Made by a program: the position numbers and the translations under genes
The notes under the pieces: generated by a model
Database searches by the model: none
What the model saw: only the letters and a program-made list of their open reading frames with translations
What the model was told of the DNA's origin: nothing
Part shown: positions 6,701-63,618 of the stretch, one piece after another
How positions within the stretch are numbered: position 1 is the first letter of the stretch
Layout: each line of letters begins with the position of its first letter
Assembly: GCF_003573545.1 (NCBI RefSeq)
Contig: NZ_QWET01000003.1
Coordinates: 1-64,000 of the forward strand
Reading direction: 5' to 3'
Length of the DNA: 64,000 nucleotides
From: Mariniphaga sediminis
Lineage (GTDB): Bacteria > Bacteroidota > Bacteroidia > Bacteroidales > Prolixibacteraceae

Positions 6701-9700
6701 GTGGTAACCCTTGCATTGGCAGCCCAACCTCCGCTTTCATCGAAATCGGAAAGCCGCATTTCATTCACCCACACTTCCACCGACTTGGATCCGGTATTAA
6801 GTTGTCCTCTCTTATTGCGGATACCCATCATTATCACCTGCACATTCCCCAGGTTGGGGCTTCCCTTTATTTTTACCCGGTTTTTATCTTTATTCCAGCC
6901 GCGGTGGACATCTTCATAAATATCCTGAATGCCCAAAGTGGAGCCTGCCATTCGCATTGTTGCATTTCGGTCAAGTTTGAGGTTGGTAAAAATTTCGAGC
7001 GGAATATCAAGCCTGTTTTCATCAGGCCATACAATATACCGATCGCTTTCAATGTCGTTTCTATACAAACCTCCATTATGTGGCGGGGTCAATTTTAAGG
7101 GGACTTCGTATTCGTAGTAGTTGTAATTGTAATCGGAACCCAGGCGGATAAAGAAGTGCAATTCATCGTCCTCCAGCGGGTAATTCTCCATTTCTTCAGC
7201 ATGCACTTCTAATTTCAGCCGTTTATATCTTCTGAAGTCCATGTAAAGCGCTTTATATGCAGCACGGGCGTCACCCTGTTCCAGTTCGTTTACCTTTAAT
7301 ACCATCGACTGTTCGTTTAACTGGCGAAGCTGCGGGTTGGCGGGATCGATTACGCGGTCAATCCCGGGAGGCAGAATGTAGTTCACCGGCGAACGACTGC
7401 CGTTTTCTTCGATGTTTACAGCGGATACATCGAAAGTGGCATTGGGCGATACAGCGTCAGATTCGCCAATGGGACGGGTGTAGCGGCGCCAGTCGGCCCG
7501 AACCAAATCAAGGGTGGCAAAACGCAAAATCACCGGATCTTCAAAACCGCGTAAATACATTCTTAAAAACCGGATTGACTTAAAGTCGCGGATGTTTCCA
7601 ACCACCTGGTTGGGATTACGAACCGGTATTTTAAACTGAAACCATTTCACCTCTCCTATCTGGCCGTTTTTTAACTGGACCCGGCTCTCTTTTATATCGG
7701 TAATATAGTTTTGTCCCAGTTGCATATCCTCTTTCCGGATATTGACCCTGTATTGATAATATCGTTCGTTTTCATTCAGCGTATTGTCGCCGTTAATGTC
7801 TTCCATATTGGGAATGGAGGATGCAGCCGTCAGGTAAGGTTCCGGGGATATCTCAGTGGTGGGCGAGTTTCCGTCAGGGCCATTATACTCTTTATATCGC
7901 TCAAGAATTCCTACTTCCTGCTGGTCATAATCGGAGCCACGGTAATAATGGAAATTATCGGAGGAAGGGTCGTTAAAATATTTTTCAAACACATCGTCGT
8001 AAACCAGGTTGCGAAGTTCATTCAGGTACTCTTCGTAAAATGACTGTTCATCTTCATCATTCAGGCCGTCGAGGCCAATATCCTGGTGTTTTCTTGACTG
8101 GTCGTCGTTTACAAAGGCATTTACCAGTGACTGGAGAGTGGAAACCCGTCCCCAGATAGTAGTGTCTACATTTGTAACTTCTTCGGTAGTTGGCAGACCC
8201 TGTTCGAACGATTTTCTGCCATCCCTTAAAATATCTTCAGAAATATCGCCGAGGTTGAAATAGAGTTGTCCGCCATCATGGGTACTCAATGTATCATATA
8301 CAAAAGGATCCATCATCCAGAATTCGATAAATTCGATGTTGGAAGTTTCAAAGTCACTGGTTTCGATTTCCCGCATAATTCCACCCCACCTTGATTCCGG
8401 ATTTGCCAGGGTCCCGTCAGGGTTTACCCCGGCAGAGAAACCGGTAGGAGAGGTGTCATAGTTATACGGGCCGCGTTCCTCCGGATAAAAAGCCAGGTCG
8501 AAAACCGGGATGTTGGTGGGCTCTCCAACCGGCGATTCTTTGGCAGGGAAAATTTCTTTTTCGTACACCTCGCGAACGAAGTGGTTAGACTGCAGATTCG
8601 GGTTATTCCTGATATGATCGGGAGTGAGGCTGTTATTTCTCAAAAAGAGCGGATCAATGATGTACCAGGCTAACTTGGCCCGGTTAAAACCCTGGCTCCT
8701 GTCATTGGTAAGGTTTCCTTCCGGGAAAAGATTGTTTTGGTTCTGCGGGGTACTTGCCATTACCCATGCCTGCCTTGCTTTCAGATCGATGGTTGTTTTG
8801 GTTCCTTCAAAATCGTCGATATAGGCATTTCCACTTTTCTCAATTACCCTGGAGTGTCCCGGAATCAACCGGGCAACTTCCGCTTCCATGTCAATTGTAG
8901 ACGGAGTATTGGTACTGTAAAACGGCAGAGCATCTACTGCCTTGGTCAGCAACATACTTTCGGTCGACCAACGTGCATCCATTCCCATCATCAGGTTTGA
9001 AATAGGATCTTCCCCGTAATCCACTTTCTGTGTCAGGGGGCGTTCCTGCATGTAGAGCGCTGTGGCGCCGAGGTTAAAATTATCGGAAAAAGCATAGTTG
9101 GCATGTGCTCCAAGCAATGTTTTCCGCTGCATGGTAAAGAGGTCTTCGCTTTCGGTCGAAACCTGGATAGGGGTGCCCGCTTCAAGCAATGCCTGGTTTA
9201 TAATTTTTACACGACCCAGAGTGTAGTCCACCGTATAGTCTACATTTTCAGTCAGTTCGCGCCCTCCGGCAGTAACTTTTACCGAACCCTGGGTCAGGTT
9301 TAAGGTTCCCAGGGCAATATCGGAACCGGAAGCTCCTTTGTAACTCCCTGACAATCGGAACTTATTATGTTCCGCATCCTGCTCGGCATACACCTGGATG
9401 GAGTCGTACAATGACTGGAAAGTATATTTTTCAATGAGTACCGGATCCTGAATAGCTTTGGCCAGGTGACTGCCAAATGGCTCCACCACCGGAAAAATAA
9501 TCCGTCCCCGGTTTGAGTGCACCGTAAGCCCTTCAATGTAGTCAAACAAACCGTCTTTGTATGGGTCAAGTTGCTTGTTTAACTTGTCTAAGTTCATTAC
9601 CTCCAGCAGTATATTTCCATTGATTCTTCCTTCCGGAAGGTAGTTAATGTACGTTCCGGTAGAATCGTTTTGGTAAACGATATTCAGAATAAAATCATCG

Positions 9701-41089: not shown

Positions 41090-41980
41090 ATGTTGGTAAA
41101 AGCTTACGGAAGTGCAGTTTTCGGAATAAATGCCACTACCATTACCATTGAAGTAGACGTAACACAAGGAATCAAATTTTTACTGGTTGGCCTCCCTGAC
41201 AACGCTGTAAAGGAAAGTCAGCAACGTATTGAATCGGCCCTCCGGCTGAACGGTTTTAAGTGGCCGCGATACAAAATAATTATTAATATGGCGCCTGCCG
41301 ATATCCGTAAGGAAGGATCGGCGTATGATTTGCCGCTTGCCACCGCTGTTTTGGCGGCTTCAGCCCAAATTAATGCGGAGAAACTGGAGAAGTATGTGCT
41401 GATGGGAGAGCTCTCGCTCGACGGCACGCTGCAACCTGTGAAAGGCGTTTTACCCATTGCCATCAATGCAAGGAAAGAGGGGTTCGAGGGATTCATCCTT
41501 CCAAAACAGAATGCCCGTGAAGCGGCGGTGGTAGACAAACTGAAAGTTTTCGGGGCAGAAAACCTGCGGGAAGTAACTGATTTTTTGAACGGCGAAGAGA
41601 ATCTGGAACAAACTGTTGTGGATACCCGCGCTGAGTTTTACGCGCAAATCAGCAATAATCCATTCGACTTTTCCGATGTGAAAGGGCAGGAAAATGTGAA
41701 GCGGGCGCTGGAAATTGCAGCTGCCGGAGGACATAACATTATTCTCATTGGTCCGCCCGGGTCGGGAAAAACAATGCTGGCAAAACGGATTCCTACCATA
41801 TTGCCGCCCTTTACGTTAAAAGAGGCATTGGAAACCACTAAAATACATTCGGTAGCCGGAAAAATAGGGAAAGATACTTCGCTGATGACCCAGCGACCGT
41901 TTCGCAGCCCGCATCATACCATCTCCGATGTTGCCCTTGTGGGAGGCGGGAATTATCCGCAACCGGGCGAAATAACATAA
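41090..41980 (+). pseudogene. comM: comM/yifB 5' fragment, interrupted by an integrated element
   Basis: 296 residues match the first part of the YifB/ComM Mg-chelatase-like ATPase (usually about 500 residues). The N-terminal ChlI-like domain is complete (residues 1-190), and Walker A is present (GPPGSGKT at 221-228). The chain ends at VALVGGGNYPQPGEIT, where intact proteins go on with 'SLAHNGVLFLDELPEF'. Walker B and the C-terminal domain are missing. A serine recombinase gene begins 54 bases later. ComM is a branch-migration helicase in natural transformation, and comM is a known insertion hotspot in other bacteria. The rest of comM should lie at the right end of the island, beyond the window. 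Confidence 0.93.
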
Positions 41981-42033
41981 GATAATATTAAGGGTATCTC
42001 CATATTTTTTTGTATTTTACACCAAAACTTTAC
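41960..42033. other. left attachment junction (attL) of the island
   Basis: The comM coding match stops around CCGGGCGAAATA, and AT-rich sequence begins directly after. The recombinase start codon follows, as is usual for serine integrase att-int layouts. The exact crossover dinucleotide cannot be fixed without the right end or an empty site. Confidence 0.6.
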
Positions 42034-43902
42034 ATGGCACAGAGATGCGCAATTTATATCCGAGTTAGTAGTGATATTCAGGATTACGAAAGACAAGTGT
42101 CAGATTTAAAGAGTTTTGTGAAAGATAACAATTTCATTTTTGAAGACAAAAATCTTTATGAAGATAAATTAAGTGGATTTAAAGATGAAAGGGAAAGAGA
42201 AGGTCTGGCCAAACTTTTAAAAGAGGTAATTGCATCTAATATCAAAATAGTGTTAGTATGGGAGATGTCGCGTCTGGCAAGAAAACCAATAATACTGCTC
42301 GAGCTAACTGATTTCTTTCAAAATAATTCAATTAACGTTTATTTTTACATTCAGAGGTTTTGGTTATTGGATGAAACCGGGAAAGTCAGTCCTCAAGCTG
42401 GATTATCTATCTCCGTTTTTGGATGGCTAACTGAATATGAGGCTCGGCTAACAAAAGAGAGATTTATATCTGCAAAAACAAATAATGTTAAGCATGGTAA
42501 ATACAATGGGGGAAAAATTCCATTTGGGTACACCCTAGACAACGAGAATCGTTTCGTTGTAAATGACAAAATTATAGAATCTTTAGATAAGAGTGAAGCC
42601 GATATTGTACGAGAAGTGTTTGACCTTTATGAAGACGGTCTAACCTGTTCAAAGATTAGCAGAATATGTCGCTCAAAGAAGTACCCCAAAATCGTTTGCA
42701 ATACTCATACTTTGGCAAGGGTTCTTCGGAACACTCAATACATAGGGTATAAAATAGTAAAACTTGGAATTAGACCTACACCACCTTTGATATCAAAAGC
42801 ACAATTCAATCTTGTACAAGAATTGGTTGAATCTAATAAGACAAAAGCGGATAAAGGTAAAAAGCATATCTTCTTACTTCGAGGGAAACTCAAATGTGCT
42901 GTTTGCGGTGAGTATTATGTGGGAAAACAAACAGATGATGCCTATATCTGTCCAAAAAATTCAGGTAGTAATAAAACAAATAAGGGAACATCTTGTCGCG
43001 GCAGTAATATTTCGATATCAACATTAGATGGTATAACTTGGGAACTGGTAAAAGAAAACTTAATTAATATGCCTGATACAGAAGTTGAAGGTTTCTTTAT
43101 TTCAAGTACCGATAAGATTGATAATTTGAAGAATCAGATTAACGAATTTCAAGATCTATTAAAAGGAATTGAAAATAGGCGAAAAAGAACCAATATTATT
43201 TTTCAGAATGAAGGTTATTCTGTGGAAGAATACACGAATGAGATTGGTAAAATAAACAATGAAAAAAATGAATGCCTAAGAAGCATCGAGTTATATGAAC
43301 AAGATTTAAGATATAATGAAAGAATTCTTGAAGAATCTAACAATATTTCTAACCGATTACAGGAACTTGATTCAATTTCTGATCGTGTGCAAATTAAAAA
43401 GGTTATAAAAACTATTGTTCGTGAAATTACCTTTCATAAGATTGGATTTTTTAAAACCATCGTAATTATTGAATATATTAACAACTACAAGGAAATGATA
43501 TTGTATAATGCAGTTGCGAAAAAAAATAGCAACAGATTTAAGAAACTAAATTACACGTTCTACTATTTCAATCCTGATGATAACCAGTTTTATGCTTTGG
43601 AATCTGAAAATGATATTTATTTCGAAGCAAAAACTGAATACTTGAAGAAGAATAATATTGGACTTAATCTACCGGATAAAATCTCAGCACAAATGTTTCA
43701 TGGAATATGTAGAACTTCAAACCTGACAGATTATGATCCATATGAGATTAGAATTCCACATCCTCGTTATGACTATAATAAGGTTTATTCTTTTGATGAA
43801 ATGTTGTTGCATCCTGATGATTCAAAAACCTCAACACACCCTTATAGCAAGATAACCTATTTCAAGGAATTAAAAAGGGAACGTTTCAATCGAAAAAGAT
43901 AA
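42034..43902 (+). CDS. large serine recombinase (integrase)
   Basis: 622 residues from ATG 42034; an in-frame TTG at 42010 would add eight residues and is less likely. The N-terminal resolvase domain starts AIYIRVSSDIQDYERQ with catalytic Ser12, and contains WEMSRLARK. A recombinase domain (YNGGKIPFGYTLD, TLARVLRNTQYIGYK), a zinc-ribbon (LKCAVCGEYY, then ICPKN and SCRGS) and a long coiled coil (about residues 360-450) follow. Such enzymes integrate elements at attB without host factors and need a directionality factor to excise. It lies directly at the comM junction, so it is presumably the enzyme that inserted this island. Confidence 0.94.
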   Translation: MAQRCAIYIRVSSDIQDYERQVSDLKSFVKDNNFIFEDKNLYEDKLSGFKDEREREGLAKLLKEVIASNIKIVLVWEMSRLARKPIILLELTDFFQNNSINVYFYIQRFWLLDETGKVSPQAGLSISVFGWLTEYEARLTKERFISAKTNNVKHGKYNGGKIPFGYTLDNENRFVVNDKIIESLDKSEADIVREVFDLYEDGLTCSKISRICRSKKYPKIVCNTHTLARVLRNTQYIGYKIVKLGIRPTPPLISKAQFNLVQELVESNKTKADKGKKHIFLLRGKLKCAVCGEYYVGKQTDDAYICPKNSGSNKTNKGTSCRGSNISISTLDGITWELVKENLINMPDTEVEGFFISSTDKIDNLKNQINEFQDLLKGIENRRKRTNIIFQNEGYSVEEYTNEIGKINNEKNECLRSIELYEQDLRYNERILEESNNISNRLQELDSISDRVQIKKVIKTIVREITFHKIGFFKTIVIIEYINNYKEMILYNAVAKKNSNRFKKLNYTFYYFNPDDNQFYALESENDIYFEAKTEYLKKNNIGLNLPDKISAQMFHGICRTSNLTDYDPYEIRIPHPRYDYNKVYSFDEMLLHPDDSKTSTHPYSKITYFKELKRERFNRKR

Positions 43903-54895: not shown

Positions 54896-55750
54896 ATGAC
54901 AGAATTTAAGAAAATTGACGGAGAGGAATTAACTTCAGCAACAAAACTCATCCTTGGGGATTCAAGGAAAGTACTTGCTTCAATTCCTGAAAATACTTTT
55001 CAATGTTGTATTACCAGTCCACCATATTGGGGTTTGCGAGATTATGGAATTGAAGGACAGATTGGTGCTGAATTTATTATTGATGATTACATAAAAGATT
55101 TGGTTGACATTTTCCGTGAAGTCAGAAGAACCTTAAAAGAAGATGGAACCCTATGGTTGAATATTGGCGATTCCTTTACTAGTGGGAATAGAAAATGGAG
55201 AGATTCTGACAAAAAAAATCCAGCAAGAGGTATGTCATATAGACCACCTACTCCAGAAGGACTAAAACCAAAAGATTTGATTGGTGTTCCATGGAGATTA
55301 GCTTTTGCACTTCAAAATGATGGTTGGTATCTTAGGTCTGATATCATATGGAATAAACCAAATTGTCAACCGGAATCAGTTAAGGATAGACCAACACGTT
55401 CTCATGAATTTGTATTTCTTTTGAGTAAATCAAAAAAATACTTTTATGATCCTGAAGCCATTAAAGAACCTGCAAGTGATGGAAAGTTGAAAAATAGAAG
55501 GAGCGTTTGGAATATTAACACAAATGGATTTAAGGGAGCACATTTTGCGGTTTTCCCCCCAGAACTTGTAAAAGTTTGTATGTTGGCCGGGTCTGAAATG
55601 AATTCAATTGTTTTGGATCCATTTTTTGGTTCAGGAACCGTAGGTATTGTCGCAGAGCAGTTGCAAAGAAAGTGTGTTGGTATAGAATTAAATCCTGAAT
55701 ATGTTGATATTACTAAGAACCGGATAAACGAACTTGTACTAAAATTTTAA
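54896..55750 (+). CDS. DNA methyltransferase of a type II restriction-modification pair (probably N4-cytosine)
   Basis: 284 residues. Motif IV TSPPYW (residues 40-45, CITSPPYWGLRDYG) precedes a C-terminal AdoMet-binding motif (DPFFGSGTVGIVAEQ, then GIELNPEYVDI), the beta-class order. SPPY is typical of N4-cytosine enzymes, though some N6-adenine ones share it. The gene overlaps the convergent nuclease gene by four bases at their 3' ends, which is a compact type II R-M arrangement. Confidence 0.88.
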   Translation: MTEFKKIDGEELTSATKLILGDSRKVLASIPENTFQCCITSPPYWGLRDYGIEGQIGAEFIIDDYIKDLVDIFREVRRTLKEDGTLWLNIGDSFTSGNRKWRDSDKKNPARGMSYRPPTPEGLKPKDLIGVPWRLAFALQNDGWYLRSDIIWNKPNCQPESVKDRPTRSHEFVFLLSKSKKYFYDPEAIKEPASDGKLKNRRSVWNINTNGFKGAHFAVFPPELVKVCMLAGSEMNSIVLDPFFGSGTVGIVAEQLQRKCVGIELNPEYVDITKNRINELVLKF

Positions 55751-56511
55751 ATATCTATACTTTCAAAACTCCAAGATGCGTGTACGATGCAATATTTCTT
55801 TAGCAGATTTTTGATTTGAAGCTTCCTCTCTGAACCACCATCAAAATACAGTTGAAATTTTAAATTTTCTAGATCGTCAAAAACATCACAATATCCCGGT
55901 TTAGGAGTTTGCTTACTACCCAACATCATTCGGAGTTGACCATTTTCAGCTTCTTGAAGTAAAGATTTTGGAATCTCAACTAGTTCATATTTCCAACCCT
56001 TTGATTTTTTTGATAGACATCTTAAGGTAAAAATTCTTTGATATCCCTTCATGTGATTAAAGAATAAATCCATAAGATTATTTAAGTCATCAGGATTATC
56101 ACCCCATGAACCTTTACCCAATTCCATGAATTTCGATATATGAACTTTATTCAATTTAATATCTCTATCAGCTTGGGTTTTGAGTGAAACTTTTACATTA
56201 TTAATTTCAATATCATGGCCGGGATTTCCTATTCGAGGCATTATTATATTGTACCCGTTGAGTTTTAGTATTCTTTCAAGTGCATATTCAAATTTATCTT
56301 TCCTAAAAGGTTCATGAGAAAAGCAATGATGGATTCTTAATGTATCACCAAAATCTTTTAAAACAGAATCATTTATTAAATCAGAATCACTATTTCTATG
56401 AATTAATAAATATGGTTTCGAAAATTGTTCGATTATTTGTTCAATAACTTCAATTTGGGTTGAAGAAAGTGCTGCAATCTCTTTGCAAATTTTCTCGATT
56501 CTGGGATTCAT
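55747..56511 (-). CDS. type II restriction endonuclease (putative)
   Basis: 254 residues. A nuclease-like core is visible: GNPGHDIEINNVKVSLKTQAD (Asp100 and Lys111), followed by HISKFMELGKGSW and QIKNLLKKYC. The wording 'G-DI...SLKTQ' is typical of restriction enzymes that discriminate self DNA. The gene lies tail-to-tail with the methyltransferase, so the pair is a type II R-M system. It may belong to the SmaI-like group, but that impression is from memory and not a search. The recognition sequence is unknown. Confidence 0.75.
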   Translation of the reverse strand: MNPRIEKICKEIAALSSTQIEVIEQIIEQFSKPYLLIHRNSDSDLINDSVLKDFGDTLRIHHCFSHEPFRKDKFEYALERILKLNGYNIIMPRIGNPGHDIEINNVKVSLKTQADRDIKLNKVHISKFMELGKGSWGDNPDDLNNLMDLFFNHMKGYQRIFTLRCLSKKSKGWKYELVEIPKSLLQEAENGQLRMMLGSKQTPKPGYCDVFDDLENLKFQLYFDGGSERKLQIKNLLKKYCIVHASWSFESIDI

Positions 56512-56673
56512 ATCTTTGGATTAGTTAAAGAGTGTCCAATGATACAATGATTTTACATAAAATCCCAGCGTAGATGCAAAAAATATTCGATTAAAAGAAA
56601 AACTAAAAAATGATAACTTTATAAACTTATATTAAATACTAAGTTGATTATCTTTAAATGTAATTATACCTGA

Positions 56674-57636
56674 ATGCAAAATCTCAAATTAGGATATAAC
56701 AGTATAACATCTGTTTACGAGTTGCTTGGTGATAAGGAAGATGACATGACCTATGGACTTGGTTATGTCCTTTCAAAAAGTCCTGCTTTTCTTTCATTGG
56801 CACTTTTGCAATATGGCCACCAGTACATAGACCCTGAACTTTGTAAAATTCAACTTCAAAGACATGAAATCAAAGACAGAGGTTACTCTGATATCGAAAT
56901 TTGGTATCGAGAAAAGCGATTGTTAATAATCGAAGCAAAAAAGGGATGGGTTTTACCTAATATCAATCAATTGGAAAAATATAAAGGACGTTTTACTAAA
57001 AATGATTTCCCATCTAGTATCGGAGTTCTAAGCGAGTGCTCAAATGAGTATGCCAAAAGAAATCTTAACAAGCATTATAAGTTTGTATCATGGAAAACAA
57101 TATATAAACTACTAAATAAGGCATACAACGAAACGACCTCAATAATTGAAAAAAATCATTTAAACGAATATTCTACATATTTATCAAAACTTATTACAAT
57201 GGACAGAGAACAATCAAATTGGGTCTATTGCGTATCACTAAGTAGAACTAAAGTTAAAGGTTCGGACGCTACATTTATTGACATTGTCAACAAGTATAGT
57301 CGTTACTTTTTCCCTTATAATCAGGGAAATGGCTGGCCAACTGAAGCTCCAAATTATCTGGCTTTCCGTTATGATGGAAAATTACAATCAATTCATAAGG
57401 TCGAGAAATTTGAGGTCAACGACAACTTAAATCAAAGTATGCCGACAGTTATTAGTGATAACACTCCTGACTTACATTTTTATTTGCATTTAGGTCCAGC
57501 AATAAAACCCCCGAAAGTCGTTAAGAATGGTAAAATTTGGCCTAATGGAAGATTGTGGTGTATGATTGACACTTTACTCACTTGCGACACGATTGAAGAA
57601 GCAAGAAACATTAGCCAAGAAAGAATGAAAAGATAA
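56674..57636 (+). CDS. PD-(D/E)XK nuclease-domain protein
   Basis: 320 residues. The core is clear: Asp73 in RGYSDIEIWY and Glu87-Ala-Lys89 in LLIIEAKKGW, followed by a helix NINQLEKYKGRF. The C-terminal half (about residues 180-315) is a separate domain without a recognised family. It stands alone between the R-M pair and the ImmA/IrrE operon, oriented opposite to both neighbours. A solitary nuclease defence gene or a regulator of a mobile element is possible. Confidence 0.75.
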   Translation: MQNLKLGYNSITSVYELLGDKEDDMTYGLGYVLSKSPAFLSLALLQYGHQYIDPELCKIQLQRHEIKDRGYSDIEIWYREKRLLIIEAKKGWVLPNINQLEKYKGRFTKNDFPSSIGVLSECSNEYAKRNLNKHYKFVSWKTIYKLLNKAYNETTSIIEKNHLNEYSTYLSKLITMDREQSNWVYCVSLSRTKVKGSDATFIDIVNKYSRYFFPYNQGNGWPTEAPNYLAFRYDGKLQSIHKVEKFEVNDNLNQSMPTVISDNTPDLHFYLHLGPAIKPPKVVKNGKIWPNGRLWCMIDTLLTCDTIEEARNISQERMKR

Positions 57637-57658: not shown

Positions 57659-58474
57659 TTAATCTAGCCTAAGAAGTGTTAGTCCCCCGTAATCCCCCAG
57701 CCTGTATGTTTGTTCAATGCAGCTGACATCTCTCTTAGTTTTGGGAATGATAGTAGGAACCCATTTTGATAAGGAAACTTTGTCTTCAATGTAATCGGTA
57801 TTAATATCAATGGAGTCTAACAGTCCAAATTGACTTTTTACTCCGTCAACGTTCACTTTTAATGCTGGTCGTCCTTTTACTCCGGTTGCACTTGCAAAGG
57901 ATTTTGAATAACTGATAAATTTTGGAGTAATATCAGCATTCCATTTAATAATCATACACTTTGAAATATCAAGCTGTGCATAACGTATTACAGTACTTTC
58001 GATTGAAGTATTAAATTGGGTTCTTAAGTTTAATATTGTTTCTAAACCCGGTTCAAATTGGTTAGAAAGATTAACAAAGTGTTTTTCTGGCATTAAAAGA
58101 TTGGATGCAAAAAAATTTGCTTCCTTCTCTATTTCATAATTAATTCCACCTTCAGAATCCGATTTATGTAATGAAATGCCTTCTTTCAGAAGATTCCGAT
58201 GTTCGTCAATAAAATAGTGTCCTAATTCGTGTCCTAATGTAAATCTCGCTCTAGGGGAGTTTTCATCTATCAATTGATCATAGTTTAGATGAATAAAAAA
58301 TTCCTCTGTATCAAAGACCAATTCCCCTATGAAGTAATCTTGATAATTTCCAGATATAACAGATATTGATTGATTTTCTGCAATCTTAAAGGGATCAACT
58401 TTATTTTCAAAAATAAATTCCTCTGCAATAGATTCTGCTAGATAACCTATTTCCAATAGTTTTTCATCAATCAT
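57659..58474 (-). CDS. ImmA/IrrE-family metallopeptidase
   Basis: 271 residues. It has the zinc motif HELGH at residues 82-86 (FTLGHELGHYF) and the downstream Glu in EKEANFFASNLLMPE, the ImmA/IrrE signature. The C-terminal part (about 150-270) has no recognised domain. ImmA-type proteases cleave a partner repressor, as in ICEBs1, to switch on a mobile element or stress response. The start overlaps the end of the 112-residue protein gene by four bases (ATGA), and a sigma factor gene is upstream of that. Confidence 0.88.
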   Translation of the reverse strand: MIDEKLLEIGYLAESIAEEFIFENKVDPFKIAENQSISVISGNYQDYFIGELVFDTEEFFIHLNYDQLIDENSPRARFTLGHELGHYFIDEHRNLLKEGISLHKSDSEGGINYEIEKEANFFASNLLMPEKHFVNLSNQFEPGLETILNLRTQFNTSIESTVIRYAQLDISKCMIIKWNADITPKFISYSKSFASATGVKGRPALKVNVDGVKSQFGLLDSIDINTDYIEDKVSLSKWVPTIIPKTKRDVSCIEQTYRLGDYGGLTLLRLD

Positions 58475-58809
58475 TTTTTGTTTTTCTTACTTCGAGCGAT
58501 ATCTCGTTCCTGTTTCATTTTTTCTTTGATATGTTCAGGAATAAAATTCTTCCCATCTCTGGCAGCCATTGTAACTCTGACTGTATTAGTTGTATCGGGA
58601 AAGATAATATCCTCACTCTTTTTTGTATCTAAAAATACAGGTTCTTGAAGTTCTTCAGGTAAAATAAAATCAGTATTACCATACAAAAGTTCATATTCCT
58701 CTACTTCATCGACATTTTCAGGGAATAAAAATCCACCTGTTCTTAAAGCACGTTGAATGTTCATTTCTTTTTGGGAATCTTGATACTTTGAATTTGATTG
58801 CTTTTTCAT
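58471..58809 (-). CDS. small acidic hypothetical protein, candidate ImmA target or anti-sigma factor
   Basis: 112 residues, with an acidic middle (PENVDEVEEYELLYGNTDFILPEELQEP) and a strongly basic C-terminal helix (EHIKEKMKQERDIARSKKNKK). Not recognised. It sits between a sigma factor gene (three-base gap) and an ImmA/IrrE protease gene (four-base overlap). By analogy with ImmA-ImmR and other sigma/anti-sigma pairs, it could be the protein the protease cleaves or an anti-sigma factor (inference). Confidence 0.6.
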   Translation of the reverse strand: MKKQSNSKYQDSQKEMNIQRALRTGGFLFPENVDEVEEYELLYGNTDFILPEELQEPVFLDTKKSEDIIFPDTTNTVRVTMAARDGKNFIPEHIKEKMKQERDIARSKKNKK

Positions 58810-58812
58810 TTT

Positions 58813-59466
58813 TTACTTTGTTTCTTCGAAACATTTACTTTTAATCTTATCCAATGCTCTTTTTTTCCTTTGCCTGATATTTGCAGATGTTGTTTTATGT
58901 GCGGAACAAAGAAATTCCATTGCATTTTCGCTAATATGACGTGTATTATCAATGCAGTCTTCGGCTGCATAAGTTAGTACTATATGTTTATCTTTTTCTT
59001 TTAAATCATTTAACGCTGATTGTAGTTTTTTCATGAAAATATTTGAAATTGGCTGAACATTTAATTCTTCATCTTCATTTTCAAAGATTTTTAGTTCCTC
59101 TATTTCTATTTTTTTATTGCATCTTTTTTCATTTATATATTCAGCAATCGTATTCAACAATACTTTATTACCAATTTGTCCAAGCAAAGCTTTAATAATT
59201 TTATTTGCTTCTTCATCCTTGATACCACTTTTAAAAGTAAAATTTGGTAAATAATCAAAAGCTTTAATAAATGTGTTTTGAACTACTTCTTTAGCTAAAA
59301 AATTAGGATCGACAAAATTGCTACAGCTCTGAACTGCTAGTTTATAAACATATCCAGCAAAGATTTTGTAAAATCTTGTCTGTGCAATTTTCACTTCCTT
59401 TTCATCGCCATTTTTAATCTTATCAACCAAGTAGATTATTGAATCATTTCGAACAGCAATTTCCAT
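58813..59466 (-). CDS. ECF-like sigma factor
   Basis: 217 residues. Region 2-like sequence spans about 25-80 (FYKIFAGYVYKLAVQ, then FLAKEVVQNTFIKAFDYLPNF), and region 4-like helix-turn-helix spans about 155-210 (LKEKDKHIVLTYAAEDC, ISENAMEFLCSAHKTTSANIRQRKKRALDKIK). The linker between them is unusually long and acidic. Sigma factors of this type redirect RNA polymerase to a small set of promoters. It is the first gene of a three-gene operon and is divergent from the Ubl conjugation operon across 98 bases holding a large dyad. Confidence 0.82.
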   Translation of the reverse strand: MEIAVRNDSIIYLVDKIKNGDEKEVKIAQTRFYKIFAGYVYKLAVQSCSNFVDPNFLAKEVVQNTFIKAFDYLPNFTFKSGIKDEEANKIIKALLGQIGNKVLLNTIAEYINEKRCNKKIEIEELKIFENEDEELNVQPISNIFMKKLQSALNDLKEKDKHIVLTYAAEDCIDNTRHISENAMEFLCSAHKTTSANIRQRKKRALDKIKSKCFEETK

Positions 59467-59486: not shown

Positions 59487-59543
59487 AACATAAACGCCTA
59501 AGCGTGACATTTCGGTTGATGTCACGCTTCTATGTTTTATGTT
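59487..59543. promoter_or_regulatory. nested dyad in the sigma/Ubl bidirectional control region
   Basis: Inner arms AAGCGTGACAT (59500-59510) and ATGTCACGCTT (59519-59529) are perfect 11-bp complements around TTCGGTTG. Outer arms AACATAAA (59487-59494) and TTTATGTT (59536-59543) extend the symmetry. It lies in the middle of the 98-base gap between the divergent sigma-factor and Ubl genes, so it is likely an operator shared by both operons. TATGTTTT at 59531 is one base from a -7 box reading towards the Ubl gene. Confidence 0.7.
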
Positions 59544-59564: not shown

Positions 59565-59864
59565 ATGGAAAAAATTATTATTGACCTTGAAGTTTATGCG
59601 AAAGAAGGGAAAAGTGTTCCTAAAGCGCAAAAGTACAAGTTTAAAGTGGACAGGGAACATTATACTGTCGAACAGGAAAGAATGACCGGAAGGGAAATTC
59701 TAATATTGGCCGGGAAAAATCCAGTCGAAAAGTATCAATTGAATCAAAGGAGTAATGGTGGTAAGGTAGTTAAAATTGATTATGATCAAGTAGTCGATTT
59801 TACCGAACCGGGGATTGAAAAATTTATGACGATCCCTTTAGATCAAACTGAAGGGGGGAAGTAA
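59565..59864 (+). CDS. ubiquitin-like modifier (multiubiquitin-domain protein, single domain)
   Basis: 99 residues matching one copy of the prokaryotic multiubiquitin domain: KYKFKVDREHYTVEQERMTG, REILILAGKNPVEKYQLNQ, GGKVVKIDYDQVVDFTEPG, IEKFMTIPL. This is a beta-grasp fold like ubiquitin. The C-terminus is EGGK: a Gly97-Gly98 pair followed by one lysine, so one residue would have to be removed before E1 activation. Many family members carry several tandem domains; this one has a single domain. It is the first gene of a Ubl-E2-JAB/E1-DUF6527 operon, three bases ahead of the E2 gene. Confidence 0.88.
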   Translation: MEKIIIDLEVYAKEGKSVPKAQKYKFKVDREHYTVEQERMTGREILILAGKNPVEKYQLNQRSNGGKVVKIDYDQVVDFTEPGIEKFMTIPLDQTEGGK

Positions 59865-59867
59865 GCG

Positions 59868-60284
59868 GTGAGGCGTCAATTCACACTTCCTGAAGAAGAT
59901 ATACTTTTTCTGGATAATTTAGGATTAGAATGGGAAACTATTATTGACAGAGGAATGCATTGGGTAATCGTACATGATTACCCCGTTCCTTTAAAATATG
60001 ATTGTTCTTCAGTAAGTGTCGCAGTAAAAATTGAGACAGGTTACCCAAGATTAGGACTAGATATGGCTTATTTCTTTCCACATTTAAAAAGGTCAGATGG
60101 GAAAGGGATTCGTGCGGTCTGTAATATGACAATTGACGGGAAACAATATCAACGTTGGTCAAGACACAGGACTGCTGCGAATCCATGGCGAGCTGGTGTT
60201 GATGATCTATCTACACATTTTAGTTTAATAAATTTCTGGTTTGAACAAGAATTCATAAAACAACCATATGGACTTCCAGCTTAA
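59868..60284 (+). CDS. E2-like conjugating enzyme (prokaryotic E2 family E)
   Basis: 138 residues from a GTG start. The family signature is the C-terminal IDGKQYQRWSRHRTAANPWRAGVDDLSTHF pattern (GKQYQRWSRH and WRAGVDDL). YPRLGLDMAYFFP corresponds to the E2 proline-rich strand. There are two cysteines, Cys46 and Cys85; Cys85, just before the signature, is the likelier thioester site. Such proteins take the Ubl from the E1 and pass it to targets. The end of the gene overlaps the JAB-E1 gene by 17 bases. Confidence 0.85.
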   Translation: MRRQFTLPEEDILFLDNLGLEWETIIDRGMHWVIVHDYPVPLKYDCSSVSVAVKIETGYPRLGLDMAYFFPHLKRSDGKGIRAVCNMTIDGKQYQRWSRHRTAANPWRAGVDDLSTHFSLINFWFEQEFIKQPYGLPA

Positions 60285-61662
60285 AATTTCAGGTGAACAC
60301 TATAATTCATTAAAAAATCATTTACTCCCTAATGATAAAAAGGAATCAATCGCTATCGCTTTATGTGGACGTCATATTGATGAAGATTGCCAATGTCTTT
60401 TTGTCCATGAAGTTATTTTAATACCATACGAAGATTGTCAAGTTAGGGAGAATGACTTAATTCAATGGTCAACAAATAAAATAATTCCTTTTTTTAAAAG
60501 GTTAACAAACACAGATTTTGGTATTCTGAAAATACATAGTCATCCATTGGGATTAAGAAGTTTTTCTGAGCAGGATGATTTTTCAGATAAAGAGTTATTT
60601 GATTCTGTTTATGGCTGGTCGAATACTGGAAATCCACATGCAAGTGCCATAATGATGCCCGATGGAGAAATCATTGGAAGGTATATTTTTAGTGATTTAC
60701 ATTTCGAACCGATATCGAAAATTTCGATTGCTGGTGACCGACTTCTCTATTTTGGTGGGAATAGTGACGATTATTCAAAACCGGAATTTGCACTAAGAAC
60801 TATACAGACCTTTGGTGATACAACATATCAAAAACTGAAAGGGTTGAAGATTGCTGTTGTCGGATGCTCAGGGACGGGGAGTCCAGTAATTGAACAATTG
60901 GTAAGATTAGGTGTTGGGGAACTCATTTTGGTTGATCCGGATATAGTCGAGTTTAAAAATCTGAATAGAATAATTAACTCAAAATATACTGACGCAAAAA
61001 AAAGAAAACCTAAAGTTGAAGCTATTGCTAATGCCATCGAAGAAATTGGATTAGGGACAAAAATTAAAGTATTTCAAAAGAATCTGTTTGATGATATAGC
61101 TACTCTAAAAGCAATTTTAAAAAGTGATGGTGTTTTTGGTTGTATGGATAGTGTTGACGGAAGGTTCTTGCTAAATCAGTTATGTTCTTTTTATTTATTA
61201 CCCTATTTTGATCTTGGAGTCAAATTGGAAGCAGATGGAGAAGGTGGAATTAATCAAATAGTTGCATCAGTACATTATGTTCAACCACTTAAATCTTCCC
61301 TTCTAACAAGAAATCTTTTTGATATGAACGATGTTAGAGCTTCAAGTCAATATCGAAAAAATCCAGAAGAATTTTTGGAATTGAAAAAGAACGCCTACAT
61401 TAAAAATGTAAATGTAAATAGTCCAGCAGTTATTAGTATTAATATGACTATCGCAAGTCATGCAATTAATGACTTTCTAAACCGAATACATCCCTACAAG
61501 GTTGAAGAACCTAATGAATATGCATCAAGCACAATTGATATTACAGAGGGATATATTATTAATGGAAAAGAAGAAACATATGAGGTTGATCATTACTTGG
61601 CGAAAAGAGCAGGTAGGGGTGATATGACACCTTTTATTGAAATGCCAGAATTATCCAAATGA
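60268..61662 (+). CDS. JAB deubiquitinase / ThiF-like E1 fusion
   Basis: 464 residues. The N-terminal JAB/JAMM domain has Glu26, then His90-Ser-His92, Ser100 and Asp103 with canonical spacing (H-x-H-x7-S-x2-D), so an active zinc isopeptidase is expected. The C-terminal E1 domain has the nucleotide loop GCSGTGSP (199-206), DPD at 223-225, NLNR at 231-234 and a Lys-rich KRKPKVEA. No Cys-X-X-Cys zinc pairs are seen in the E1. The protein could mature or remove the Ubl and also activate it with ATP. It overlaps the downstream DUF6527 gene by four bases. Confidence 0.92.
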   Translation: MDFQLKISGEHYNSLKNHLLPNDKKESIAIALCGRHIDEDCQCLFVHEVILIPYEDCQVRENDLIQWSTNKIIPFFKRLTNTDFGILKIHSHPLGLRSFSEQDDFSDKELFDSVYGWSNTGNPHASAIMMPDGEIIGRYIFSDLHFEPISKISIAGDRLLYFGGNSDDYSKPEFALRTIQTFGDTTYQKLKGLKIAVVGCSGTGSPVIEQLVRLGVGELILVDPDIVEFKNLNRIINSKYTDAKKRKPKVEAIANAIEEIGLGTKIKVFQKNLFDDIATLKAILKSDGVFGCMDSVDGRFLLNQLCSFYLLPYFDLGVKLEADGEGGINQIVASVHYVQPLKSSLLTRNLFDMNDVRASSQYRKNPEEFLELKKNAYIKNVNVNSPAVISINMTIASHAINDFLNRIHPYKVEEPNEYASSTIDITEGYIINGKEETYEVDHYLAKRAGRGDMTPFIEMPELSK

Positions 61663-61985
61663 AAGTATTAAAGAATTATAGAAATTTCCATTTCTGGTTT
61701 AGAAACAAATATAAAACAAGAGTTGCTTATGATATTATTGAAGAATATAAAGCCAATACCATATATCTTATAAAAGATACGGATAAGAATCCATGGCTGA
61801 TTACCTTTTTATGTCCATGTGGTTGCAAATCAGAGATTCATTTAAATTTATTGAAAGAAGCAAATCCTTGCTGGAATTATGTAGTTGATAAAAAGAACCG
61901 AATAACAATTAGACCATCTGTCAATAGAACTGTTGGATGCAAAAGTCATTTTAATATAATTAAAGGTCGGATCTATTGGGTATAA
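61659..61985 (+). CDS. DUF6527-family protein of the Ubl operon
   Basis: 108 residues. The characteristic features are LCPCGCKSEIHLNLL and the C-terminal NRTVGCKSHFNIIKGRIYWV; Cys/His residues in both could bind metal. DUF6527 proteins are recurrent partners of multiubiquitin-E2-JAB/E1 operons, and a role in processing or conjugation is suspected rather than proven as far as I can state. The start overlaps the JAB-E1 gene by four bases, so it is the fourth cistron. Confidence 0.85.
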   Translation: MKVLKNYRNFHFWFRNKYKTRVAYDIIEEYKANTIYLIKDTDKNPWLITFLCPCGCKSEIHLNLLKEANPCWNYVVDKKNRITIRPSVNRTVGCKSHFNIIKGRIYWV

Positions 61986-62562: not shown

Positions 62563-63618
62563 ATGTTTAATAATTTAAAAATAATATTCTTGTTGTTGCT
62601 TATTTCAAGCTACAGCTATTCACAAATCCCCGATGGTTACTACACCACAGTTGACAATTTAATTGGCGAGCAATTAAAATCTGAACTTCACAACATTATC
62701 AAAGACCATGTAGAATTTCCATATACATCTTCATCAACCGACACATGGGATATACTAAAAGAAACCGACCGGGACACCACCAATCCCGAAAATGTAATAC
62801 TTTTTTATACTGGTTGGTCAGTTAATGCAGCCCAAGAGTACAATGATAATACAGGATGGTCAAGGGAACATGTTTGGGCTAAGTCGCATGGTGATTTTGG
62901 AACCACAATGGGTGCAGGAACGGATGTTCATCATCTTAGGCCAGCCGACATCACCGTAAATAGTGCAAGAAACAATAAGGATTTCGATTATGGTGGTTCT
63001 TTGTATGTCGATGGTGATGGTGCAACAGAATGTTATACTGATGCCGATAGTTGGGAACCAAGAGACGCTGTGAAAGGTGATGTCGCTAGGATGCTATTTT
63101 ATATGGCTGTCAGATATGAAGGTGATGGTGATGAACCTGACCTTGAATTGGTGGATACAGTTAATACCTTTGATTTAAATGAATCCGGCAAGGGGTATAT
63201 GGGTAAACTTTCAACCCTTTTAGAATGGAATAAAGAAGATCCGGTTGATAGTTTTGAAATCCATAGAAATGATGTAATATATTCTTACCAAAAGAACAGA
63301 AATCCCTTTATCGACCATCCAGAATTTGTCGATTTGATTTGGGGAGATAATGTAACCGTAGTGGATGTTTTCGATATAAAGGAAATAACTTTATATCCTA
63401 ATCCTGCGTCAGAGTATGTTGTCATAGAAGCACCATTTGAAGGTGATGTTTCCGGGGAAATTTACAATACAAGTGGTGTCTCTGTATTACGTTTCGATTT
63501 GGTAGGGTCATCAAAGAGGATCAATTTAAATGGCTGGTGTAATGGGATTTATTTTCTTAAAATAACAAACGGTGATGTAATTTACCGTAAGAAAATGGTG
63601 GTGTCGAACTTCATGTAA
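62563..63618 (+). CDS. endonuclease I (EndA/NucM-like) with T9SS sorting domain
   Basis: 351 residues. A signal peptide (MFNNLKIIFLLLLISSYSYS) is followed by the endonuclease I domain: TGWSREHVWAKSHG (His103, His109), VHHLRPADITVNSARNNKDF, then WEPRDAVKGDVARM. Residues about 275-350 form a type A T9SS C-terminal domain: ITLYPNPASEYVVIEAPF, GWCNGIYFLKITNGDVIYRKKM. This nuclease should cross the outer membrane through the host's T9SS, of which SprA is encoded in this window. It could degrade external DNA for nutrient use or against incoming DNA. It is unusual cargo on an island and is not clearly part of the neighbouring operons. Confidence 0.9.
   Translation: MFNNLKIIFLLLLISSYSYSQIPDGYYTTVDNLIGEQLKSELHNIIKDHVEFPYTSSSTDTWDILKETDRDTTNPENVILFYTGWSVNAAQEYNDNTGWSREHVWAKSHGDFGTTMGAGTDVHHLRPADITVNSARNNKDFDYGGSLYVDGDGATECYTDADSWEPRDAVKGDVARMLFYMAVRYEGDGDEPDLELVDTVNTFDLNESGKGYMGKLSTLLEWNKEDPVDSFEIHRNDVIYSYQKNRNPFIDHPEFVDLIWGDNVTVVDVFDIKEITLYPNPASEYVVIEAPFEGDVSGEIYNTSGVSVLRFDLVGSSKRINLNGWCNGIYFLKITNGDVIYRKKMVVSNFM

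Follow-up and report, generated by a model that had tools for sequence, protein, structure and literature searches.

The 64,000-nt window analyzed here (the whole stretch of DNA, Mariniphaga sediminis, GCF_003573545.1, contig NZ_QWET01000003.1, positions 1-64,000 of the forward strand) carries a compact operon for a ubiquitin-like protein (Ubl) and its conjugation enzymes. The locus raises two questions. To which kind of pathway does the operon belong, and what switches it on?

The Ubl Operon and Its Genomic Island

The operon consists of four genes:

59565..59864, + strand: Ubl (BubA-like) with a single Multi_ubiq domain and the C-terminus TEGGK (Pfam PF14452 Multi_ubiq, 9.1e-12)
59868..60284, + strand: E2 (BubB-like, Prok-E2_E) with a GTG start (Pfam PF14462, 2.1e-35)
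60268..61662, + strand: fusion of a JAB isopeptidase and a ThiF-type E1 (BubCD-like; Pfam ThiF 9.2e-31, Prok-JAB 2.7e-4)
61659..61985, + strand: DUF6527 protein with a putative zinc site, CxCGC...CxSH (Pfam PF20137 DUF6527, 1.6e-21)

The Ubl and E2 genes are 3 nt apart, the E2 and fusion genes overlap by 17 nt, and the fusion and DUF6527 genes overlap by 4 nt. With this spacing, the four genes form a single operon. The initial annotation had named the same four genes, and they are indeed open reading frames. Its Ubl, E2, E1 and DUF6527 family assignments agree with the Pfam matches. In its JAB-E1 fusion, the Prok-JAB match (21.3 bits) falls below its 25-bit cut-off. The JAB domain carries the JAMM motif (EXnHS/THX7SXXD, as given in PMC300881), and E26, H90, S91, H92, S100 and D103 are invariant in all six aligned proteins. 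Residues 7-462 of the fusion match Citrobacter BubCD (PDB ID: 9ea4_A, 1.8e-64). These invariant residues and the BubCD match support the JAB assignment.

In the PDB, the E2 is matched by Citrobacter BubB (9eae_C, 6.1e-22). The sequence RWSRH is invariant in all seven aligned E2 proteins, and no cysteine is. A serine nucleophile instead of a cysteine is expected of Bub E2 enzymes. The Ubl matches a multi-ubiquitin protein (9d59_A, 1.2e-7), Citrobacter BubA (9ea8_B, 1.8e-5) and BilA (8u38, 6e-5); the 247-residue 9d59_A aligns with it in three stretches, two of which are weak. One C-terminal glycine of the Ubl is invariant (6/6). C52, C54, C56, C94 and H97 of the DUF6527 protein are invariant in eight of eight sequences, and this protein has no PDB match at E <= 0.1.

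Because Citrobacter BubB and BubCD are the best matches of the E2 and the fusion, the operon is of a known kind; by homology, it is almost certainly a Bub operon. The proposed kinship with Bub-type pathways is upheld by PDB matches to BubA, BubB and BubCD. The earlier claim of a ubiquitin-type pathway complete in all its steps gains plausibility from homology to Bub proteins with solved structures.

The operon was said to lie on an island in comM, and the borders agree with this:

41090..41980, + strand: comM, 5' half of the interrupted gene, which marks the left border (matches to Pfam ChlI and Mg_chelatase; profile 1-103 of 207)
42010..43902, + strand: serine recombinase adjoining the left border (Pfam Resolvase 4.8e-24, Recombinase 1.4e-9)

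The sole Mg_chelatase_C match of the genome, the 3' half of comM, begins 3.1 kb beyond the end of the window. The gene is interrupted by an island of approximately 25 kb, which carries the Ubl operon, two DNA methylases and an integrase; the serine recombinase is the probable integrase. A search for a sequence repeated at both island borders gave a longest shared stretch of just 10 nt.

A Divergent Sigma Factor, Small Protein and Protease

A three-gene unit (57659-59466), absent from the initial annotation, is transcribed away from the Ubl operon, with 98 nt between the two:

58813..59466, - strand: ECF-like sigma factor (TIGR02937 8.2e-8, 32 bits, cut-off 42.9)
58471..58809, - strand: small protein of 112 residues with a conserved MAARxG, a proposed anti-sigma-like switch
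57659..58474, - strand: CapP-like M78 (ImmA/IrrE) zinc protease with HELGH (Pfam Peptidase_M78 1.2e-10, PADLOC capP 3.5e-42)

The TIGR02937 match of the window sigma factor is below the cut-off, yet it spans positions 6-164 of 165. Sigma regions 2 and 4 are supported by the family profile and by TIGR02937, with the window protein itself below the cut-off of the latter. When the family profile was compared with the PDB, all 17 matches were sigma factors, as were all nine NCBIfam matches of the window protein. TIGR02937 was also found in each of the nine other unit sigma factors scanned (of 20; E <= 1.3e-5), four of them over the cut-off. The AlphaFold model has a mean pLDDT of 83.6 and a pTM of 0.51, with eight helices and a disordered stretch at 117-140. 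A DUF1057 match (Pfam 2.4e-4, 20.7 bits, cut-off 21) was rejected in view of the uniform NCBIfam and PDB results.

The small protein belongs to no known family: it has no matches in Pfam (E <= 1), PADLOC or NCBIfam (E <= 0.1). V-ATPase subunit C (0.0012) was rejected because no stretch passes alone. Residues A83 and R84 are invariant (19/19). In a low-confidence model (mean pLDDT 70.9, pTM 0.36) with helices at 6-24, 33-43, 52-55 and 92-111, MAARxG sits in coil between helices. The protease matches CapP (PDB ID: 7t5t) at 1.2e-4 alone and at 2.1e-18 with the family profile, and HELGH is present in 19 of 19 unit proteases.

Recurrence of the Unit

Searches with the small protein were positive in 9 of 395, 5 of 100 and 13 of 395 genomes, in overlapping sets. 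They gave 21 distinct genomes, five of which had seeded the profile. The sigma factor adjoins the small protein in all 21, and the M78 protease comes next in 19. In 15 of the 21 genomes the unit faces a Bub-type, Bil-like or CBASS operon. Four units (G494, G591, G713 and G822) have no recognized defense family among ten neighbors scanned, and two are unassigned. G713 and G822, of one genus, have the unit at a common site beside FAD synthetase.

The locus L014, in a genome of the same taxonomic class as the window but of a different order, holds the unit and a Bub operon in synteny with the window. The units of L026 and L057 share 82% (sigma factor), 87% (small protein) and 85% (protease) identity; the former faces CBASS and the latter Multi_ubiq/DUF6791/ThiF/DUF6527 genes. 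In L047, a unit of this kind stands opposite a Bil-like operon. The Bub loci G113 and G009 have a sigma factor and a longer, fused small protein without the M78 protease. In both protease-less loci (L013 and L011) MAARxG is unrecognizable by eye; the other 19 all retain AR. Among nine genomes positive for the E2, five are without the unit. Searches for the small protein in viral contigs and in plasmids led nowhere.

The unit is absent from the Splendidivirga Bub locus (L004). There we found a 186-residue protein whose sigma-like matches are weak (NF041236, type III-E sigma, 0.002, below cut-off), a 94-residue protein ending in IPMAAKRRKKR and a weak C39-like peptidase match (6.5e-4, below cut-off). 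Profile comparison of the 186-residue protein with the unit sigma factors gave a probability of 0.3%, so these genes are a lead only.

Inverted Elements Between the Operons

The intergenic region contains one further feature:

59500..59529, no strand: inverted element, AAGCGTGACAT-8 nt-ATGTCACGCTT, between the divergent operons

Such GCGTGA/TCACGC elements stand just upstream of the sigma gene. The exact arms derived from the window have four matches in 373,743 nt of the 20 other loci, and each match lies 25-40 nt upstream of the sigma gene. Eight control stretches (134,382 nt) contain none. With one mismatch in each arm there are nine matches, four of which lie elsewhere. Of the 21 loci, 8 have the pattern and 13 lack it. 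For each locus, 60 shuffles were compared with the longest inverted repeat found upstream of the sigma gene. The observed repeat was reached by at most one shuffle in the window, L014, L013, L027, L057 and L058, by four in L028 and by 7 to 58 in the other 14 loci. In the genome, TGTCACGCTT occurs three times: two are the pair in the window and the remaining one falls within a reading frame. Its backward control occurs four times, so a count of three is unremarkable by itself.

The gap between the 8-nt arms ranges from 1 to 46 nt, which fits two separate outward-facing elements; in L026, L028, L057 and L058 both arms abut as a single palindrome. No -35/-10 pair with the usual ECF spacing was recognized by eye. 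As a marker in viral contigs, the element gave seven stretches, none with the unit, and its abutting form gave none.

Proposed Mechanism and Alternatives

The unit is very likely the dedicated controller of the Ubl operon, and as a recurring portable unit it is probably the on-switch of adjoining immune operons. As a whole, the locus is best explained by a Bub operon governed by a dedicated, divergent sigma-factor relay, a reading that we moderately favor. The order of action, from protease to anti-sigma to sigma factor, we regard as an even call. In a resting cell, we infer, the sigma factor would be kept inactive by the small protein. A damage signal would then switch on the M78 protease; single-stranded DNA is the candidate by analogy, as CapP and PprI are M78 proteases switched on by it (PMC13373217, for the CapP context). 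The protease would cut the small protein, perhaps in the flexible part around MAARxG. The freed sigma factor would recognize the outward-facing TCACGC elements and fire both its own promoter and that of the Ubl operon. The Ubl would be trimmed by the JAB domain to its C-terminal glycine where a tail follows, as in the window Ubl with TEGGK, and adenylated by the ThiF domain. We infer that the E2 may accept it on the invariant serine of RWSRH, since no cysteine is conserved in the E2, before passing it to targets. The DUF6527 protein would join at some step.

The same elements could instead form an operator in a repressor system like CapH+CapP. Both promoters would then be repressed by the sigma-like protein, either by itself or together with the small protein, up to its removal by the protease. 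Among solved proteases the closest is CapP, whose substrate is a repressor, and the abutting palindromes of four loci resemble a dimer operator. The unit has no known helix-turn-helix repressor in Pfam, PADLOC or NCBIfam, however, its sigma profile matches sigma factors only, the window sigma factor matches nearly all of TIGR02937, and arm gaps of 1 to 46 nt are hard to square with one dimer. We consider this repressor model unlikely. Still less probable is a stress or toxin-antitoxin-like unit that works independently and has only the island and intergenic region in common with defense operons. The four units without a defense family, two of them beside FAD synthetase, would suit such a unit, but similar units stand opposite different operons, and in 15 of 21 genomes the operon opposite is of the CBASS, Bub-type or Bil-like kind.

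As for the effector, it is scarcely credible that the ThiF, JAB and Ubl genes act in cofactor or sulfur-carrier chemistry and not in protein conjugation: MoeB/ThiF are relatives of the ThiF domain, but an E2 and a JAB domain are present and the BubCD match is near full-length. The Bil system reportedly tags phage structural proteins. By analogy, the Ubl operon may be an anti-phage effector of this type, as the initial annotation had suggested. We hold this view only tentatively, somewhat short of even. The island holds two DNA methylases and an integrase, and CBASS and a Bil-like operon also face this kind of unit; on the other side, according to PMC13373217, phage protection by Bub operons has yet to be demonstrated, and these operons may serve in stress responses.

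Returning to the sigma-factor relay, if true, it would be a form of positive control that is self-amplifying and portable to any operon with the right promoter. Such portability would explain near-identical units beside unrelated systems. The question of when Bub operons switch on would become directly testable, and the MAARxG small protein together with TCACGC elements would give a signature for finding further such operons.

Comparison with Known Systems

The new part is the neighboring control unit, while the operon itself is of a known kind. None of the titles and abstract beginnings covered announces a sigma factor in control of CBASS, Bub or Bil operons; this coverage does not extend to the main Bub papers (Ye 2026, Gong 2025) or to Chambers 2024, which may mention one. 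The immune-operon controllers named in PMC13373217, CapW, CapH+CapP and CapK+CapS, act by relief of a repressor. There is an even chance that the unit adds to these a fourth class of portable immune controller, one that works as an activator. In it, a DNA-damage-responsive CapP-like protease would release the dedicated sigma factor from its small anti-sigma protein, and CBASS, Bub and Bil-like operons across the phylum would be switched on in this way. The class would derive from a chromosomal stress switch that once stood alone and still does in another branch of the phylum.

In CapH+CapP, a CapP-like M78 protease lies beside immune operons, as in the window (PADLOC 3.5e-42, PDB ID: 7t5t); in the window, however, a sigma factor and the 112-residue protein stand in place of a CapH-type helix-turn-helix repressor, of which none was found in the unit. 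The PprI/DdrO (IrrE) DNA-damage response likewise has an M78 protease, described as activated by single-stranded DNA in PprI, whose partner is a repressor and not a sigma factor. The type III-E system Csx29/Csx30/CASP-sigma combines a protease, a regulatory protein and an ECF sigma factor in one immune locus, and Csx29 is described as cleaving Csx30, the inhibitor of CASP-sigma. This likeness is one of gene order only. The window protease is M78, not TPR-CHAT, and no CRISPR genes were noted.

Bil shares the Ubl, E2, E1 and JAB components with the window. The window E2 and E1, however, match Bub proteins best. The Ubl matches BilA (6e-5) about as closely as Citrobacter BubA (1.8e-5). Bub (Citrobacter BubA, BubB and BubCD; PDB ID: 9ea4, 9ea5, 9ea8, 9eae, 9eav) has in common with the window a Ubl, a Prok-E2_E-type E2, a JAB-E1 fusion that aligns over nearly its full length and the RWSRH sequence. 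The window Ubl differs in having one domain, compared with its 247-residue relative 9d59_A, and the neighboring unit is sigma-based rather than of the CapW, CapH+CapP or CapK+CapS kind.

Operon Facing a Sigma Unit

The sigma–protease unit, rather than the operon that it faces, is the new part of this locus, and it gives a testable switch. The operon itself was placed by the initial annotation at 59565-61985 of the window, + strand, as four tightly packed genes (Ubl, E2, JAB-E1 fusion, and DUF6527), and the ORF positions confirm this. The families proposed for it were recovered with Pfam as Multi_ubiq, Prok-E2_E, ThiF, and DUF6527; the Prok-JAB match stayed under the threshold. In a PDB search, the closest solved proteins were Citrobacter BubB for the E2 (6.1e-22) and Citrobacter BubCD for the fusion (residues 7-462, 1.8e-64). 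The Ubl matched five multi-ubiquitin or Ubl chains, including Citrobacter BubA (1.8e-5) and BilA (6e-5). No convincing solved relative of DUF6527 was found there. These closest relatives identify the four genes, as judged by sequence, as a bacterial ubiquitination-like (Bub) operon. By itself, this is an ordinary operon of an already known kind.

The JAMM residues of the JAB domain are kept in all six aligned fusions, and the E1 has a single invariant cysteine (C292) in that alignment. The DUF6527 pattern CxCGC...CxSH is kept in 8/8. One C-terminal glycine of the Ubl is invariant in 6/6 aligned proteins. Its context is TEG in the window and in the relatives' loci L014, L013, and L004, QEG in L011, and EAG in L012. 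Nothing follows this glycine in L014 and L004; GK follows in the window. In L013, a single uninterrupted frame (8471-9190) spans both the Ubl and the E2 of the Bub operon, and release of the E2 would need cleavage after TEG. The RWSRH motif of the E2 is invariant among seven aligned proteins, including the Citrobacter one, and a search of the same alignment for a conserved cysteine gave none. The E2 intermediate in Bub is serine-linked. The invariant motif and the lack of a conserved cysteine would be compatible with such an intermediate here.

The unit, which the initial annotation did not mention, starts 98 nt from the Ubl gene and is transcribed in the opposite direction:

58813-59466, - strand, sigma-like protein, divergent from Ubl (sigma family profile)
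58471-58809, - strand, small protein of 112 aa, divergent from Ubl (ORF, conserved MAARxG)
57659-58474, - strand, M78 protease, divergent from Ubl (PADLOC capP, 3.5e-42)

Against the PDB, the protease family profile found CapP first (2.1e-18), followed by two IrrE entries, and the sigma family profile found 17 sequences, all of them sigma factors. The AlphaFold model of the sigma protein (20 sequences) has eight helices, with residues 117-140 disordered; confidence is good locally and middling for the overall fold. The small protein has no family match in Pfam, PADLOC, or NCBIfam. Its model is of low confidence, passable locally and poor overall, with helices arranged around a disordered stretch. 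Two residues of the MAARxG motif, A83 and R84, are invariant in 19/19.

Recurrence of the Unit

A profile built from five small proteins (A4) matched 9/395 genomes of the class, 5/100 relatives, and 13/395 of the phylum. These sets overlap and hold 21 distinct genomes, five of them profile seeds; all 21 loci were mapped. A sigma gene adjoins the small protein in every one, and 19 have an adjacent M78 protease as well. In L063, two overlapping frames share the protease match, and a 457-aa frame contains the sigma match. The locus maps of genomes G113 and G009 have no M78 protease beside the small protein, which is instead fused to a further conserved domain of ~150 aa without a Pfam match (L011:9967-10758, L013:6722-7567). 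Here the protease seems to have been replaced. MAARxG is not recognizable by eye in these two loci, which would fit a protease that needs it.

A recognized Bub, Ubl-type, Bil-like, or CBASS operon faces the unit in 15/21 genomes, always divergent from sigma.

Operons facing the unit, with genomes and basis of recognition
Bub of the window type: G000, G159, G113, G009; tblastn with window proteins
Ubl, DUF6791, ThiF, and DUF6527: G044, G167, G736; Pfam (Ubl of G044 by tblastn only, 7.8e-4)
Multi_ubiq and ThiF: G314; Pfam
Bil-like set: G257; YukD-like Ubl, Prok-JAB, ThiF under the cut-off, family-less 160-aa protein
CBASS: G086, G051, G632, G369, G668, G645; NTase with Cap15, patatin, or Sa_NUDIX

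In G159, the unit and Bub operon are syntenic with the window (tblastn identity 39.8-71.0%, seven proteins). Loci L026 (CBASS) and L057 (Ubl operon) have near-identical units (sigma 82%, small protein 87%, protease 85%) and unrelated facing operons. Outside the 15 are G239 (SEC-C and DUF6602 proteins) and G416, both left unassigned, and G494, G591, G713, and G822. The last four, two of which (G713 and G822) belong to one genus, have no defence family among ten scanned neighbours, so a stand-alone form of the unit seems to exist. In L061, L062, L063, and L064, from another branch of the phylum, the trio has no recognized defence neighbour; it adjoins FAD synthetase in L063 and L064. Between sigma and the facing operon of L011, L046, L058, and L059, a short basic frame of ~58 aa, ending in FKGVRKEK or similar (by eye), recurs before different operons.

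The E2 family was found in 3/100 genomes of one set and 7/395 of another, nine distinct genomes in all. Sigma and the small protein lie beside the E2 in four of these but not in the other five. Among the five, L016 and L017 each encode a protein that matches M78 and has, by eye, an HTH-like N-terminus. In L018 (5590-7869), a 537-aa M78-match protein lies beside a 212-aa protein, upstream of another Prok-E2_E operon; the 212-aa protein resembles one in L004 by eye. None of the three unit profiles matched in L012 and L015. Beside the Splendidivirga Bub operon, L004:2488-5155 encodes a weakly sigma-like 186-aa protein, 94-aa (ending in IPMAAKRRKKR) and 95-aa proteins, and a peptidase that weakly resembles C39. 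These genes may form a parallel relay that uses a different protease.

Inverted DNA Element

The sigma–Ubl intergenic stretch holds AAGCGTGACAT-8-ATGTCACGCTT. We searched with the window's own 8-nt arms for exact pairs 0-60 nt apart. Four were found in 373,743 nt of 20 other loci (L013, L027, L028, and L058), all 25-40 nt upstream of sigma, and none in eight control stretches (134,382 nt). With one mismatch allowed per arm, the total rose to nine pairs, five lying upstream of sigma, and the controls still had none. A wider pattern occurs eight times in 387,743 nt, always upstream of sigma and in 8/21 loci, a partly circular count because the pattern was built from several of these loci. In the 5.83 Mb genome, TGTCACGCTT occurs three times, twice as the element pair and once inside a reading frame; its backward control occurs four times. 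The gap between the 8-nt arms varies from 1 to 46 nt across loci. This suggests a pair of elements that face outward, each serving one promoter, and not a single operator; however, a usual ECF -35/-10 pair was not recognized by eye.

The comM Island

The proposal that the operon sits on an island in comM holds, since comM halves were found on both sides:

41090-41980, + strand, 5′ half of comM (Pfam)
contig 67105-67395, beyond the window end, the genome's only Mg_chelatase_C match, in the 3′ half of comM (frame start near 66775)

Their positions give an island of ~24.8 kb. A serine recombinase lies at its left border (41090-43902 together with the 5′ half), and the island contains two DNA methylases, a phage-type integrase, and a NucS-like nuclease. 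Two further island genes (254 and 320 aa) lie at 55747-57636; the 320-aa protein has no confident match in Pfam, PADLOC, or NCBIfam. Just 3′ of the Ubl operon, 62563-63618 encodes an Endonuclease I that carries a T9SS sorting domain. Matches to SprA and to a T9SS sorting domain suggest that the host belongs to Bacteroidota.

Proposed Mechanism and Known Systems

The M78 proteases CapP and PprI are described in PMC10904395 and PMC13373217 as activated by ssDNA and cleaving a repressor. In type III-E CRISPR, a protease cleaves Csx30, otherwise an inhibitor of an ECF-type sigma (PMC10028731). Combined, these precedents make protease-controlled sigma release the simplest reading. The M78 protease would control release of the sigma factor from the small protein, and the released factor would drive both its own unit and the Ubl operon. 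We infer this order of protease, small protein, and sigma by analogy. A literature search whose reach excluded the main Bub papers found no description of a sigma-based controller. Phage protection by Bub operons is given as not demonstrated in PMC13373217. That paper counts 544 Bub operons, of which 219 have CapW or CapH+CapP and 59 have CapK+CapS; some of the present sigma–small protein–protease units could be hidden within its CapH+CapP cases.
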